64,000 nucleotides of DNA, taken from positions 62,001 to 126,000 of the forward strand of contig NZ_KB905268.1 in NCBI RefSeq assembly GCF_000378745.1, written 5' to 3'. The notes beneath the pieces are model-generated. The model worked only from the letters and a program-made list of their open reading frames with translations. It ran no database searches and was not told the DNA's origin. The stretch is from Prevotella amnii DSM 23384 = JCM 14753 (GTDB taxonomy: Bacteria > Bacteroidota > Bacteroidia > Bacteroidales > Bacteroidaceae). Of this stretch, positions 7,750 to 12,143 are shown piece by piece (positions within the stretch are counted from its first letter, which is position 1; each line of letters begins with the position of its first letter). Made by a program: the position numbers and the translations under genes.

Positions 7750-7782
7750 TGTTTTTTTAATGTATATTCAAAATAAAACTTG

Positions 7783-7790
7783 TATTTTTG
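7783..7790 (+). promoter_or_regulatory. Promoter -7 element for tadA, implying a nearly leaderless mRNA
   Basis: TATTTTTG matches TAnnTTTG and ends 7 bases before the ATG at 7798. Transcription should begin within a few bases of the start codon, leaving no room for a Shine-Dalgarno sequence. Confidence 0.6.
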
Positions 7791-7797
7791 CAAATAT

Positions 7798-8250
7798 ATG
7801 AGTGCTGAAGAAGATATAAAAAAAGACCTCCACTATATGCAATTTGCCTTAGAAGAAGCTAAGCAGGCATATAAAGAAAAAGAGATCCCCATAGGAGCTA
7901 TCATTGTATGTAAAGATAGAATAATAGCACGTGCACACAATCTTACTGAAAGATTACACGATGTTACCGCTCATGCTGAGATGCAAGCCATTACTATTGC
8001 TGCTAATGAGTTAGGAGGTAAATATCTTGAGGGTTGTACCCTTTATGTTACTGTAGAGCCATGCATCATGTGCGCCGGTGCTTTAGGGTGGTCGCAGATG
8101 AAACGCATAGTCTTTGGCTGTATAGACGATAAGCGCGGATATCATACGTATGCACCTAAGGCCTTACACCCTAAAGCAAATATTATAGGTGGAATTATGG
8201 AAAATGAATGTAAAGAGCTTATGCTTAGATTTTTTAAAGAAAGAAGATGA
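7798..8250 (+). CDS. tadA: tRNA-specific adenosine deaminase TadA
   Basis: 150 residues. Deaminates A34 of tRNA-Arg(ACG) to inosine; zinc enzyme of the cytidine deaminase superfamily. The zinc/active-site motif HAEMQAI and the second motif PCIMCAGAL are both present. The frame opens upstream at 7780, but that extension would contain the promoter element at 7783-7790, so the ATG at 7798 (MSAEEDIKK) is the likely start; an internal Met at 7837 (MQFALEEAKQ) is an alternative. It converges with the UpxY-like gene at 8274. Confidence 0.95.
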   Translation: MSAEEDIKKDLHYMQFALEEAKQAYKEKEIPIGAIIVCKDRIIARAHNLTERLHDVTAHAEMQAITIAANELGGKYLEGCTLYVTVEPCIMCAGALGWSQMKRIVFGCIDDKRGYHTYAPKALHPKANIIGGIMENECKELMLRFFKERR

Positions 8251-8273
8251 TGTTTATTCCACTTCCTTTTAAT

Positions 8274-8849
8274 CTATTCTACCCCCTCAATAGCAACACA
8301 ACACCAGCGAGATACCTTTAACATTACTCCCATTCCCGGCACTTCTTTAAGAAGATAATATTTCTTATTCGACCTTACTAACCTTCCTGTCATGCCTTTC
8401 ATAGGACCATATTTCACAAAAACCTTATTACCTACCTTTAGCTGTGCCTCCTTTTCTGTTAGAAATTTACGAAGCGTTATCTCTGGATTACACATTAAAC
8501 GAAAGTCGTACATCTGCTTAGAAGGAATGAGAGCAAACTGACTATTATCATCTATCTTACGAATAACACTTATCTTAAACTTAGCATTTAAAACCGACTT
8601 CTTAAAAGTATCATTATCCATTGTTTGCTTAACAAACAAAAAATTACGTATAACAGGCTTAAGAATATGCCCCACTCCACCCTCTGGCTTCATTATTTCA
8701 ACATATTCCATTGGTACAAAACACTCGTAACCAAACGACTCAAAGTATGCTTTAACATCTTGCAACGACTTAGTAAAAAGACGAATAGCATACCAAGGAA
8801 AACCATCATTAGCAATAACCTCTGTTGAAGAACTTGAAAGATCTACCAT
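8274..8849 (-). CDS. UpxY-family transcription antiterminator (NusG paralogue), orphan
   Basis: 191 residues. NusG-like N-terminal domain (PWYAIRLFTKSLQDVKAYF, then ECFVPMEYVEI) and a C-terminal KOW-type segment (VGNKVFVKYGPMKGMTGRLV), the architecture of UpxY specialised NusG proteins that let RNA polymerase read through long polysaccharide operons in Bacteroidales. Such genes are normally the first gene of a capsule operon; here nothing downstream on the same strand belongs to glycan synthesis and tadA is convergent. It is the last gene of a co-directional group behind trpC-like and trpF-like genes (69-base gap to trpF). It may act in trans at a distant locus. Confidence 0.85.
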   Translation of the reverse strand: MVDLSSSSTEVIANDGFPWYAIRLFTKSLQDVKAYFESFGYECFVPMEYVEIMKPEGGVGHILKPVIRNFLFVKQTMDNDTFKKSVLNAKFKISVIRKIDDNSQFALIPSKQMYDFRLMCNPEITLRKFLTEKEAQLKVGNKVFVKYGPMKGMTGRLVRSNKKYYLLKEVPGMGVMLKVSRWCCVAIEGVE

Positions 8850-8918
8850 AATCTACAATGAAAACAAAAGCACAACCTATCACAAGACAACACCACTCTT
8901 AATAAAAAACCAAAAAAA

Positions 8919-9668
8919 CTACTCCAACCTACAAAGCTTATTTATAAATCCTCGCAACTTAACTATATCCTTTAAAGCTGGAGCCGTCTCAAACTGGCTA
9001 TTAACATTAATACCTATACACAAAGAATGTTTTAAAGAATGTATCGCCTTTACATCATGCTCACCTATAGAGCCACTAAGAAAGAAAGGTGTACTACCAT
9101 TATACGAATTTAGCAAATTCCAAGAAAAACGCTTTTTATCATCATCTGCCTTATTACTTTTAGCATCAAAAAGGAAATAATCAACATGCCCTTCATAATC
9201 TGCACATTGCTTAAAATCGGATTTTGAAGCCACTCTTATGGTTTTTATTATTTTAATGTTTGGACGTATATCAGTACATATCGTACGACGAAAGTTATCT
9301 ATCATAACAGGACTTTCAGAGCCTGAGAGCTGAACGATGTCCAAATTGAAATTTACTACTCTGCTAACTATTGTTTGTGGCATATCATCGGCAAACACTC
9401 CACAAAGCTCTATTTCTTTATCCTTTATTATTTGTGCTAAATTAACTTTTTTGTTACAATCTAAAGAGCATATATCAGGCATAATACCGGTCTTTGTAGA
9501 CAGCTGCTTAACATACCTCACACTATTTGGACAAAAACTTAAACCTATAATATTTGCACCTGCAAAAATAGCATCACTTATGTTTTGTGCATCACACATA
9601 CCACAAACTTTTATCTTTTTAGGTATAAAAACATTGCTGTCCTTATTAAATAATTTACTAAACATCAT
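8919..9668 (-). CDS. trpF: Phosphoribosylanthranilate isomerase-like protein (TrpF-like, divergent)
   Basis: 249 residues of the TrpF family (third step of tryptophan synthesis from chorismate). The general base Cys (KVCG, Cys22) and the general-acid Asp (FLFDAK, Asp168) are present, as is an Arg in NSVRYV. However, the usual phosphate-binding GGTG loop after the catalytic Asp is replaced by a charged segment (residues 171-180), LSGGI is LSGSI, the QLHG motif is QLSG, and the conserved Asp of GIDLNS is Asn221. An extra segment (TKTGIMPDICSLDCNKK) follows the first strand. It lies 3 bases after trpC. The family is clear; normal catalytic competence is doubtful. Confidence 0.8.
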   Translation of the reverse strand: MMFSKLFNKDSNVFIPKKIKVCGMCDAQNISDAIFAGANIIGLSFCPNSVRYVKQLSTKTGIMPDICSLDCNKKVNLAQIIKDKEIELCGVFADDMPQTIVSRVVNFNLDIVQLSGSESPVMIDNFRRTICTDIRPNIKIIKTIRVASKSDFKQCADYEGHVDYFLFDAKSNKADDDKKRFSWNLLNSYNGSTPFFLSGSIGEHDVKAIHSLKHSLCIGINVNSQFETAPALKDIVKLRGFINKLCRLE

Positions 9669-9671
9669 AAG

Positions 9672-10472
9672 CTACTCTTTTAAGTCTTTAATAAATTTAC
9701 ATAACGCATCACCCGGAGCTTTCTCTTTCATAAAAACTTCACCTATTATAAAGCCTTTAAAACCTTCTTTACGAAGTTCCTTCACCATTTGAACACTACT
9801 AATGCCGCCCATACTCACTAACACCTTATCTTTAGGTAAACAAGGTGCTAAATGAAAAGAGTTATGCACGTCTGCATGGAAAGTTGTTATACTCATATTA
9901 TTCACACCTACAATATCTGGCTGAAAAGAGAGATAATCTAATTCCTTTTCTGAATTGATTGTAAGCAAAACCTCTAACCCCAAATAATGAGCCGACTCTA
10001 TGAGGTGCTTACACTCTTCTTTGCTAATACAAGAAGCCATAAGCAATACTGCTGATGCACCACAATATTTAGCTTGAAGAAGCTGATAATCGTCTATAAC
10101 TATATTATTATACAAAATAGGACATGTTACACCGCTCTGCCGAGCCTCTTGGATATGCTCGTCATATCCACCAAAAAACTGCCTATCAGTAACTATGCTT
10201 ATCGCAGAGGCTCCTTCCTTCTGATAACTAAGAGCTGTATCTCCCGCTCTTGCCGCATCATTTATCCAGCCGTGCAAAGGGCTATGCCGCTTAAACTCTG
10301 CAATAACACCTGTAGAAGAACCTCGTAAAGCCTCGACAAGAGAAGAACCTTCAAACAGATATTCATTATTCTTATCTACATAAGCATACAGCTGCTTAAT
10401 AGGCAAGAAACGCTTCCACTGCTCAAGCTCTATACGTTTAACTTTTACTATTTCATCTAAAATATTGTTCAT
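9672..10472 (-). CDS. trpC: Indole-3-glycerol-phosphate synthase-like protein (TrpC-like) lacking key catalytic residues
   Basis: 266 residues, full length for TrpC and alignable over its whole length. EFKR (Glu59, Lys61) and the first Asn of NN (191) are kept, but positions that are catalytic in known IGPS enzymes differ: the KDF lysine is Asn122 (YNNIVID), the base Glu of LLEVH is Thr171 (LLTIN), the Arg of NNR is Met193, and Glu-Ser of SESG are Met221-Gly222 (VSMGG). The frame is intact, not a pseudogene. It precedes trpF-like by 3 bases, and no other trp gene is in the window. A promoter at 10477-10484 implies a leaderless mRNA, so classical trp attenuation is not possible. Homology certain, activity doubtful. 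Confidence 0.82.
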   Translation of the reverse strand: MNNILDEIVKVKRIELEQWKRFLPIKQLYAYVDKNNEYLFEGSSLVEALRGSSTGVIAEFKRHSPLHGWINDAARAGDTALSYQKEGASAISIVTDRQFFGGYDEHIQEARQSGVTCPILYNNIVIDDYQLLQAKYCGASAVLLMASCISKEECKHLIESAHYLGLEVLLTINSEKELDYLSFQPDIVGVNNMSITTFHADVHNSFHLAPCLPKDKVLVSMGGISSVQMVKELRKEGFKGFIIGEVFMKEKAPGDALCKFIKDLKE

Positions 10473-10476
10473 AACA

Positions 10477-10484
10477 CAAAGATA
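10477..10484 (-). promoter_or_regulatory. Promoter -7 element for trpC-trpF, implying a leaderless mRNA
   Basis: Minus-strand TATCTTTG ends 4 bases before the trpC ATG (10472), so transcription should start at about the start codon itself. Confidence 0.6.
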
Positions 10485-10745
10485 ATAATTTTATTTGGTT
10501 AAGTATTTACTTTTTTAAATGATTTACAACGTGGAACAACATAAAAGCATTATTCCATAAAATATATTGCTCAATATAAAAATATTATGTAACTTTGATT
10601 TCCATTATGGTAAATACTTTTATAAAAGTATATATACAAAAAGAATATATTAAAAAATACAACGATAAAATAATATTATTTTTATAGCAGACTATCTTTT
10701 AAAAGAACTTTCTGCTGAAACAAATTATCTCTTTTAATTATAATT

Positions 10746-11396
10746 ATGTCAGTTATTGTTTCACCCTCATTACTATCTGCCGATTTCCTTCATCTCTATA
10801 AAGACATAGAGATGATTAATAGTAGCGATGCCGATTGGCTTCATATGGACGTAATGGACGGTAGCTTTGTGCCTAATATCTCGTTTGGATTTCCTGTTAT
10901 GAAAGCAGTAAGCAAGGTTTTAAAAAAGCCTATGGACGTACACCTAATGATAAAACACCCCGAAAACTATATTCAGCAAACTTTAGATTGTGGTGCTGCT
11001 ATCATGAATATCCACTACGAGGCTTGCGTACATCTACACAGAACTTTACAAGCCATAAAAGCTACGGGCATGAAAGCAGGAGTAACCTTAAACCCGTCTA
11101 CCCCTGTAAATGTATTAGAAGATATTATAGGAGACATAGACATAGTACAGATTATGAGCGTCAACCCAGGATTTGGAGGACAATCGTTTATAAAAAGTTC
11201 TCTAAAGAAGGTACGAAAGCTCAAAGCTCTTATAGAAAACGAACATTGCAATACTCTTATCGAGGTAGATGGAGGAGTAAATGGAGAAACTGCACCTTTA
11301 CTAATAGATGCAGGGACTGATATTCTTGTTAGTGGTAGCTATATTTTTGGAAGTAAAAATCCTTATTCTACTATCAAATCGCTAAAAGCATTATAA
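10746..11396 (+). CDS. rpe: Ribulose-phosphate 3-epimerase
   Basis: 216 residues, normal length. Interconverts ribulose-5-phosphate and xylulose-5-phosphate in the pentose phosphate pathway; metal-dependent TIM barrel. Visible motifs: LLSADFLHL, HMDVMDGSFVPN, DVHLMI, MSVNPGFGGQSF and EVDGGVNG, which carry the metal and phosphate ligands. It is a single plus-strand gene between minus-strand trpC-like and a lipoprotein gene. A TAACTTTG promoter-like element occurs at 10590-10597, about 150 bases upstream. Confidence 0.96.
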   Translation: MSVIVSPSLLSADFLHLYKDIEMINSSDADWLHMDVMDGSFVPNISFGFPVMKAVSKVLKKPMDVHLMIKHPENYIQQTLDCGAAIMNIHYEACVHLHRTLQAIKATGMKAGVTLNPSTPVNVLEDIIGDIDIVQIMSVNPGFGGQSFIKSSLKKVRKLKALIENEHCNTLIEVDGGVNGETAPLLIDAGTDILVSGSYIFGSKNPYSTIKSLKAL

Positions 11397-11474: not shown

Positions 11475-12071
11475 TTATATCTCTTCCCAAAACGCACATA
11501 TACCAACATAATCCTTCATGCCAATAACACCCGAAAAGGCTTGCTTCCTACCAAATAACAACAATTTACGACCTATATTATCTGAATGCTTCTTCAAATT
11601 ATATTTATTTTTATTAGAAACATTACTCAAGCATAGGACCATAACTTTTCTAAGATCTCTTTCGTCTTTATTATCAGCCAATAATATATATAAACCAGAA
11701 GTAAAAGGAGCGTTCCATTCTACATCTTTTAGATTTCTCTTAAAAGCACCTATTATATATCCTACCACATACATTTTTTCATTATTCGGCACAGTAGTAA
11801 GAAATTTATATACACTCATAGGGTGCTCCATATCATAATTTTCTGATGCCCCTCCCTTACCTGTACCTTCACCGTTGTTAGGCGACTTGCCTGTACCATT
11901 ACCGTTATTAGACGAACCGCCTTTACCTTTTTGGGGCGGAACATTGTTTGCAGGAGGCTTGGGCTCTGCAGGCTCTTCTTTTTTTATATCATCTTCTTCT
12001 ATAATAGGTTTTTCACAAGAATATAACGCTAAACAACCTATAAAAAGAAGTAAACAAGCTATCTTTCTCAT
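11475..12071 (-). CDS. Lipoprotein with low-complexity linker and C-terminal OB-fold-like domain
   Basis: 198 residues from the ATG at 12071. MRKIACLLLFIGCLALYSC is a lipoprotein signal with the lipobox Cys, followed by an acidic/Pro stretch, a Gly/Asn/Lys low-complexity linker with repeated NNGxGTGK units, and a ~110-residue domain (VYKFLTTVPNNEKMYVVGYI, LYILLADNKDERD, GRKLLLFGRKQAFSGVIGMKDY) resembling the Bacteroidetes OB-fold family DUF6359. The frame extends upstream to 12143, but a promoter element at 12090-12097 lies within that extension, supporting the 12071 start. Probably surface or periplasmic; ligand unknown. Directly upstream is a candidate small RNA. Confidence 0.75.
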   Translation of the reverse strand: MRKIACLLLFIGCLALYSCEKPIIEEDDIKKEEPAEPKPPANNVPPQKGKGGSSNNGNGTGKSPNNGEGTGKGGASENYDMEHPMSVYKFLTTVPNNEKMYVVGYIIGAFKRNLKDVEWNAPFTSGLYILLADNKDERDLRKVMVLCLSNVSNKNKYNLKKHSDNIGRKLLLFGRKQAFSGVIGMKDYVGICAFWEEI

Positions 12072-12089
12072 ATATAACATATTTAGAAA

Positions 12090-12097
12090 CAAAAATA
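12090..12097 (-). promoter_or_regulatory. Promoter -7 element for the OB-fold lipoprotein gene
   Basis: Minus-strand TATTTTTG, 18 bases upstream of the ATG at 12071, matches TAnnTTTG. Confidence 0.55.
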
Positions 12098-12143
12098 CAA
12101 AAAGTTTTTTTATAGATTGGCAATAATTATATTTATAAAACAC

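Follow-up and report, generated by a model that had tools for sequence, protein, structure and literature searches.

The trpC* gene of Prevotella amnii DSM 23384 = JCM 14753, located on the reverse strand at positions 9672–10472 of the window (the whole analysed stretch of 64,000 nucleotides), encodes a homologue of indole-glycerol-phosphate synthase (IGPS) with five out of eight IGPS active-site residues replaced. On the evidence of the sequences, this locus is probably the remnant of a trp operon, still in place after the loss of trpD, trpA, trpB, and trpE, in which TrpC* and TrpF* with altered active sites have been kept by selection for a new, most likely non-catalytic role.

The open reading frame comprises 266 codons from ATG with zero internal stops, and its product matches the Pfam IGPS profile at 187.5 bits (cut-off 27), residues 5–253 aligning with profile positions 1–247 of 254. 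TrpC* is thus a homologue by the criterion of covering the whole IGPS domain, and the initial annotation, which had described an intact frame and end-to-end similarity to TrpC, is confirmed in both respects. In the NCBIfam scan, TrpC* scores under the cut-offs of all 14 models listed (best 224.7 vs. 260). The active-site positions, mapped by alignment to the solved IGPS 6bma and to TrpCs of relatives and given here in Sulfolobus solfataricus numbering, are retained at E51, K53, and N180 (Glu59, Lys61, and Asn191 of TrpC*, respectively), and replaced at K110, E159, R182, E210, and S211 (Asn122, Thr171, Met193, Met221, and Gly222, respectively), exactly the eight assignments made initially; the same alignment shows no shifted copies of the catalytic residues in TrpC*. 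According to PDBsum, quoted in PMC3391178, the IGPS catalytic residues are E51, K53, K110, E159, N180, and S211, and TrpC* departs from this list by K110N, E159T, and S211G; beyond it, R182M and E210M affect residues included in the IGPS signature (PMC5980557).

Outside the reduced class described below, all 65 TrpC rows examined have EKKENRES at the eight positions (59 of the genus and six from outside it; nine duplicate rows and two contig-end fragments were dropped). In P. amnii TrpC*, five out of eight catalytic positions are changed, compared with nine out of 54 conserved positions elsewhere in the protein (one-sided Fisher test, p = 0.011, nominal, with 11 proteins tested), in line with the initial claim that the catalytic residues are replaced while the rest of the protein stays. 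Such an enrichment (p < 0.05, nominal) is found in three out of 11 reduced-class proteins only, namely, those of P. amnii, G016, and G099; in the other eight, catalytic positions are hit no more often than other conserved ones. Structure prediction from an alignment of the P. amnii protein and two database relatives gave a mean pLDDT of 43, and a search of genome contigs for related loci yielded three distant loci only, one of them a 35-residue match.

The P. amnii assembly (2.39 Mb, rated 99.99% complete) contains one IGPS match, trpC* itself, and zero matches to trpA, trpB, and trpD; the genome search suggested in the initial annotation thus finds neither a second trpC nor these three genes. 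Two chorismate-binding genes are present, one of 352 aa following a thioesterase-like ORF, the other of 324 aa adjoining a 190-aa amidotransferase gene (pabA-like). Neither has the size or the context of trpE (469 aa in a relative), and judging by size and neighbors they are presumably menF, and pabB with pabA; no trpE is evident in the genome. Apparently, P. amnii is unable to make tryptophan. Since both the general acid and the general base are gone, and neither a maker of the substrate nor a user of the product has been found, IGPS catalysis by TrpC* is very unlikely, and the activity is presumably truly zero; TrpC* is most likely a conserved pseudoenzyme.

The initial annotation saw no other trp genes nearby, which turned out to be wrong. 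A homologue of phosphoribosylanthranilate (PRA) isomerase, trpF* (8919–9668, reverse strand; PF00697, 67.7 bits vs. cut-off 22.7), starts 3 bases downstream of trpC*, and is followed by a gene for a UpxY-family NusG paralogue, a transcription antiterminator (8274–8849, reverse strand; NF033644, 143.4 bits vs. cut-off 100). Typically, UpxY genes open capsule operons; the P. amnii gene passes the cut-off of the UpxY model, but is the last gene of the trp remnant, the next ORF (7780–8250) being on the other strand. Upstream of trpC* lies the divergent rpe (ribulose-phosphate 3-epimerase; 10746–11396, forward strand), a landmark of the site that the trp operon occupied ancestrally. An Rfam scan of positions 8200–11000 returned nothing up to E 0.1.

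Nine TrpF sites were compared, with names, Thermotoga maritima numbering, and catalytic roles (Cys7, Asp126) that we take to be standard: eight are identical in 58 out of 58 canonical loci, and Asp126, in 57. P. amnii TrpF* keeps Cys7, Arg36, and Asp126, while three residues invariant across all 58 canonical loci, His83, Asp178, and the second glycine of the phosphate loop, are changed to Ser, Asn, and Ser, respectively. Given this mixture, P. amnii TrpF* looks altered, not plainly dead. His83 is lost in all 13 reduced clusters, and Asp126, in eight out of 13, yet it is present in P. amnii; Cys7 is kept in 11 out of 12 TrpF* rows (G441, missing from the 12-row site table, was read separately). 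In most relatives, TrpF* has most likely lost its catalytic equipment.

What had been pictured as a lone odd gene is actually one of eleven reduced trp operons in the genus. Among 398 genomes surveyed, a TrpC match is found in 296, and a trpA match, in 287 (283 over the family cut-off); comparison of the two lists by hand gives 14 genomes with a trpC match and no trpA match. In all nine of them with a completeness of 90% or more, P. amnii included, TrpC is altered. The remaining five assemblies are 63–87% complete: G092, G179, and G409 have canonical residues, and G280 and G395 have contig-end fragments of TrpC in which the first three positions only are visible, these being canonical. In G333 (58% complete), whose sole trpA match has E 9e-4, TrpC is canonical as well. 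When the nine altered TrpCs were made into a profile and 276 genomes of 90% or higher completeness were scanned with it, G441 and G430 joined the class; these two come from outside the genome-wide trpA survey. The residues were read in TrpCs at fetched loci, a subset of all TrpC matches. Two incomplete assemblies, G136 and G234 (71 and 81%, respectively), have a trpA match and no trpC match.

The only replacement shared by all 11 TrpC* is Ser211 to Gly; Glu51 is kept in 11 out of 11, and Asn180 and Arg182, in ten each. The eight positions read EKNTNMMG in P. amnii, EKSTSRGG in G016, EKNENRAG in G099, EKNENREG in G335, EVKENREG in G017, G108, and G361, EVKKNREG in G408 and G441, EVRENRAG in G187, and ELKENRQG in G430; the EVKENREG lineages still hold six out of eight catalytic residues. 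In all 11 species trpF* directly adjoins trpC*, with trpG present in nine reduced operons and the UpxY gene also in nine. The order trpC*-F*-G-UpxY is observed in G017, G099, G108, G187, G335, G361, G408, and G430, whereas G441 has trpC*-F*-G (without UpxY), P. amnii, trpC*-F*-UpxY (without trpG), and G016, trpC*-F* alone (without either). The reduced clusters themselves have no further gene in common besides trpG and UpxY. In G003 and G026, which lack a trpC match, trpF-trpG-UpxY persists beside rpe (loci L159 and L163, respectively).

The complete operon trpD-C-F-A-B-E-G is found in seven out of ten canonical-TrpC neighborhoods (G221, G066, G219, G455, G024, G405, and G483); in G486, G492, and G071, one or two trp genes were left unlabelled by ORF picking, and trpG of G486 was later found in place. 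Seven out of the ten fuller operons are located by rpe (G066, G219, G071, G024, G405, G486, and G492, with other ORFs in between in G071, G405, and G492), as are nine out of 11 reduced clusters, eight directly, including that of P. amnii, and G016 across a 1-kb gap; the clusters of G099 and G187 lie elsewhere. In G455 (L107), alone among the ten neighborhoods, a UpxY gene comes after the complete trpDCFABEG operon; judging from this one case, UpxY may have joined before the operon was reduced.

In the ClpC tree (29 out of 30 ClpC loci, G492 being left out; long branches in G066, G069, and G483), ten reduced species together with G010, G003, and G026 form one starred group (100/98), and G016 lies apart. 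The same ten form one clade in the TrpC tree (99/92), where G016 falls among canonical TrpCs (96/78, not starred). On the TrpC tree, one clade of all 11 TrpC* withstands the test (p-AU 0.168), whereas the ClpC tree rejects a single origin; thus, the class probably has one main origin and a second, convergent one in G016, which is likely rather than proven. By ClpC, the nearest to P. amnii of the 30 genomes compared is G010, which has no trpC match; the surroundings of its ClpC gene were searched for a remnant of the locus, and synteny ends there. Five intergenic stretches searched for trp remnants yielded one short trpF match only, in the G016 gap (E 9e-4).

In the related species, dN/dS of 0.07–0.10 (NG86) or 0.08–0.16 (YN00) shows TrpC* to be under purifying selection, though hardly for IGPS activity. 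The dN/dS check proposed in the initial annotation, run on five close pairs of relatives with the same class of TrpC*, gave by NG86 0.104 (G017/G108), 0.100 (G408/G441), 0.067 (G017/G361), 0.087 (G108/G361), and 0.080 (G361/G408), the pairs sharing species and a sixth one, G430/G017, being saturated; the values for canonical TrpC are 0.067, 0.092, and 0.073, with one of four pairs saturated. By YN00, TrpC* yields 0.163, 0.141, 0.079, and 0.083 in the four pairs where the method ran, and canonical TrpC, 0.073 and 0.030 in two pairs. The median ratio of TrpC to ClpC distances is 2.94 in 36 reduced pairs, 2.63 in nine pairs with P. amnii, and 1.37 in 54 canonical pairs (the pairs overlap and are non-independent; G016 and pairs with ClpC distance below 0.03 were left out). 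Given the higher YN00 values and the approximately twofold faster rate relative to ClpC, the constraint on TrpC* is somewhat weaker than that on canonical TrpC, that is, partly relaxed. For TrpF*, dN/dS (NG86) is 0.12–0.20 in six pairs, compared with 0.22 in the one computable canonical pair. As all species used for dN/dS belong to the reduced clade, by parsimony the selection postdates the loss of the pathway. Simple decay, which the initial annotation had argued against, is thus at odds with the data on relatives; of its refuting scenario, a strain free of other trp genes with a decaying locus, the absence of trpA, trpB, and trpD and the lack of an evident trpE hold, but the class shows no decay.

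For P. amnii itself, the closest TrpC has 56% identity, and the gene turned up in no close relative, so decay in this lineage is judged from the open frames and protein conservation only, and the selection on its trpC* can only be inferred. Fourfold sites of P. amnii trpC* are 29–42% identical to those of G099, G335, and G017, that is, saturated, whereas the proteins are 48–52% identical. In a neutral simulation with substitutions only and no indels, zero out of 2000 copies kept the frame at d = 0.25 or at the larger distances tried.

The reduced operons also differ from the canonical ones in their predicted expression. A Bacteroidota −7 promoter element (TAnnTTTG), TATCTTTG, is located at positions 10477–10484 on the reverse strand, −12 to −5 from the trpC* start codon, and the element has this placement in nine out of 11 reduced operons, P. 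amnii included, the exceptions being G016 and G187. In Flavobacterium johnsoniae, the element spans −12 to −5 relative to the transcription start (PMC6847099); because of the matching spacing, the trpC* mRNA is predicted to be leaderless and to start at the ATG. In Bacteroides thetaiotaomicron, 5′ UTRs shorter than 10 nt are uncommon, making up about 3.7% of the total (PMC7366714). Among 44 ORFs of at least 200 aa in the window, the only one with such a placement of the element is trpC* itself. A Trp leader peptide, with consecutive Trp codons, is encoded upstream of 38 out of 58 canonical loci (59 were examined, 58 being long enough) and of none of the 11 reduced ones; in P. amnii, it is absent within 1.5 kb upstream of trpC*. 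In these 38 loci of the genus (e.g., L006, L035, L092), the leader is conserved as M...WWWR.SR..KS, and in five aligned loci it is followed, by eye, by a GC-rich inverted repeat and a T run. This arrangement makes ribosome-mediated attenuation of the canonical trp operons likely.

TrpG retains Cys, His, and Glu, presumably the catalytic triad, in ten out of ten aligned proteins (seven from reduced and three from full operons). Exactly one TrpG/PabA-type gene over the cut-off was observed in 24 out of 26 genomes, the other two, G016 and G004, having none; tryptophan and folate synthesis may thus share one amidotransferase. With a single gene of this type, TrpG most likely doubles as PabA and hence would probably be needed for folate, which would explain the retention of trpG, but not of trpC* and trpF*. 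The single such gene of P. amnii is located beside pabB and, being only 42% identical to TrpG of G221, may be another pabA.

Taking all this into account, we propose that the trp operon lost trpD, trpA, trpB, and trpE while the trpC* locus stayed in place; that TrpC* and, in most relatives, TrpF* lost catalysis, their folded (beta-alpha)8 barrels being kept by selection; that the barrels would bind a phosphorylated ligand or a protein partner; and that trpC* and trpF* would be transcribed without the Trp leader, together with the UpxY gene and, in most relatives, trpG. If so, a non-catalytic role seems a reasonable expectation, presumably in binding or regulation and not as a new reaction: different lineages have lost different catalytic residues, which fits a role without one fixed active site and makes a shared new active site less likely than a binding or scaffold role. 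The operon shared with UpxY suggests a link to antitermination, although direct work of the barrels with UpxY is doubtful. What counts against the proposed explanation is the approximately twofold faster evolution of TrpC* with eight out of 11 proteins showing no catalytic-site preference, the varying composition of the clusters with G003, G026, and G010 lacking a trpC match, and the residual active sites, as EVKENREG keeps six out of eight residues and P. amnii TrpF*, Cys7 and Asp126. The new function suggested in the initial annotation, whether as a scaffold, a binding protein, or a different isomerase, is likely in view of the selection and the replaced residues, but not its premise of an isolated gene, as trpF* adjoins. 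TIM barrels often change their reaction, and TrpC* and TrpF* might have become new enzymes that retain the barrel and the phosphate site but act on a different phosphorylated sugar or amine. That 45 out of 54 non-catalytic conserved positions are kept in P. amnii TrpC*, and that Glu51, Asn180, and Arg182 of TrpC* and Cys7 of TrpF* are universal or nearly so in the class, would agree with this possibility, which we nevertheless consider unlikely, as the replaced positions vary by lineage, with the Ser211 to Gly change alone common to all, and the clusters have no common gene besides trpG and UpxY.

Slow decay, with trpC* and trpF* being leftovers carried along with a trpG needed as pabA and disappearing, most of all in P. 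amnii, is less probable still. It agrees with the single TrpG/PabA-type gene in 24 out of 26 genomes, the absence of trpC from G003, G026, and G010, the faster rate and higher YN00 dN/dS of TrpC*, and the lack of preferential hits at catalytic sites in most of the proteins; but dN/dS of about 0.1 is observed in pairs whose ancestor, by parsimony, was already reduced, the frames of trpC*, trpF*, and UpxY are open in the P. amnii operon, where there is no trpG to be carried with, and no simulated neutral copy keeps its frame at d = 0.25. That TrpC* is still an IGPS with weak or rearranged catalysis, in a strain supplied with precursors, is hardly credible: the Pfam score far over the cut-off and the retained Glu51, Lys53, and Asn180 conform to it, but TrpC* reaches none of the listed NCBIfam TrpC cut-offs, its general acid and general base are both substituted, and without trpAB and trpD the product would have no user, and the substrate, no maker. 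As a more specific and quite speculative form of the preferred explanation, retained selection for a non-catalytic role, the dead TrpC and TrpF barrels might constitute a regulatory module sensing a phosphorylated metabolite and acting with UpxY on transcription, a latent use exposed repeatedly by the loss of tryptophan synthesis in bacteria and plastids; since TrpG seems to double as PabA, the metabolite could perhaps belong to the chorismate/p-aminobenzoate branch.

Canonical TrpC resembles TrpC* in the whole-length homology, the trpF neighbor, and the place by rpe (seven out of ten fuller operons), whereas the trpC* locus has replaced active-site residues, no remaining pathway, and no Trp leader. 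The nearest precedents are PfAMR1 and the Leucomyxa plasmidifera TrpF–TrpC fusion, both from plastid-bearing eukaryotes. In PfAMR1, an apicomplexan IGPS-like barrel required for apicoplast biogenesis and retained in tryptophan auxotrophs, functional residues are non-conserved; it did not complement E. coli trpC, but the protein was undetected by western blot (PMC6380595). It shares with TrpC* the loss of catalytic residues and of the tryptophan pathway, and differs in being eukaryotic and in having been explained by a gene duplication that left a canonical copy alongside, whereas TrpC* was reduced inside a trp operon with trpF. In the Leucomyxa fusion, both parts lack key catalytic residues and are considered a pseudoenzyme by the authors, and the alga is auxotrophic for tryptophan and apparently channels its chorismate to folate alone (PMC11528492); this plastid protein has lost the TrpF Cys, while TrpF* mostly keeps it and loses His83. 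In Actinomycetaceae from human cavities, PriA, a retained trp/his enzyme, adapts after gene loss (PMC5404923) and in this resembles TrpC*, being a trp-pathway enzyme retained and changed in bacteria, but it stays an isomerase, has changed under relaxed selection, is not a TrpC, and is not known to lie in an operon with an antiterminator. We found no description of a TrpC–TrpF(–TrpG) remnant in Prevotella or other Bacteroidota in the open-licence literature, nor is one included among the incomplete Trp variants in the accessible part of PMC9026213. A bacterial counterpart of the precedents, with paired TrpC* and TrpF* retained at the original site of a shrunken operon along with UpxY, did not turn up in this literature.

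Gene loss is usually read as plain decay; here, altered enzymes of a lost pathway stay under selection in relatives, and the question raised by PfAMR1, what an IGPS barrel without IGPS activity is for, becomes testable in bacteria. Metabolic models should be built with caution, as a Pfam match alone labels trpC and trpF in species unable to use them for tryptophan. Beyond rpe, a DUF6359 gene is located at positions 11475–12143 on the reverse strand; its homologue is found beyond an ECF sigma gene in six relatives with reduced operons, and at this place in P. amnii there is no sigma gene.
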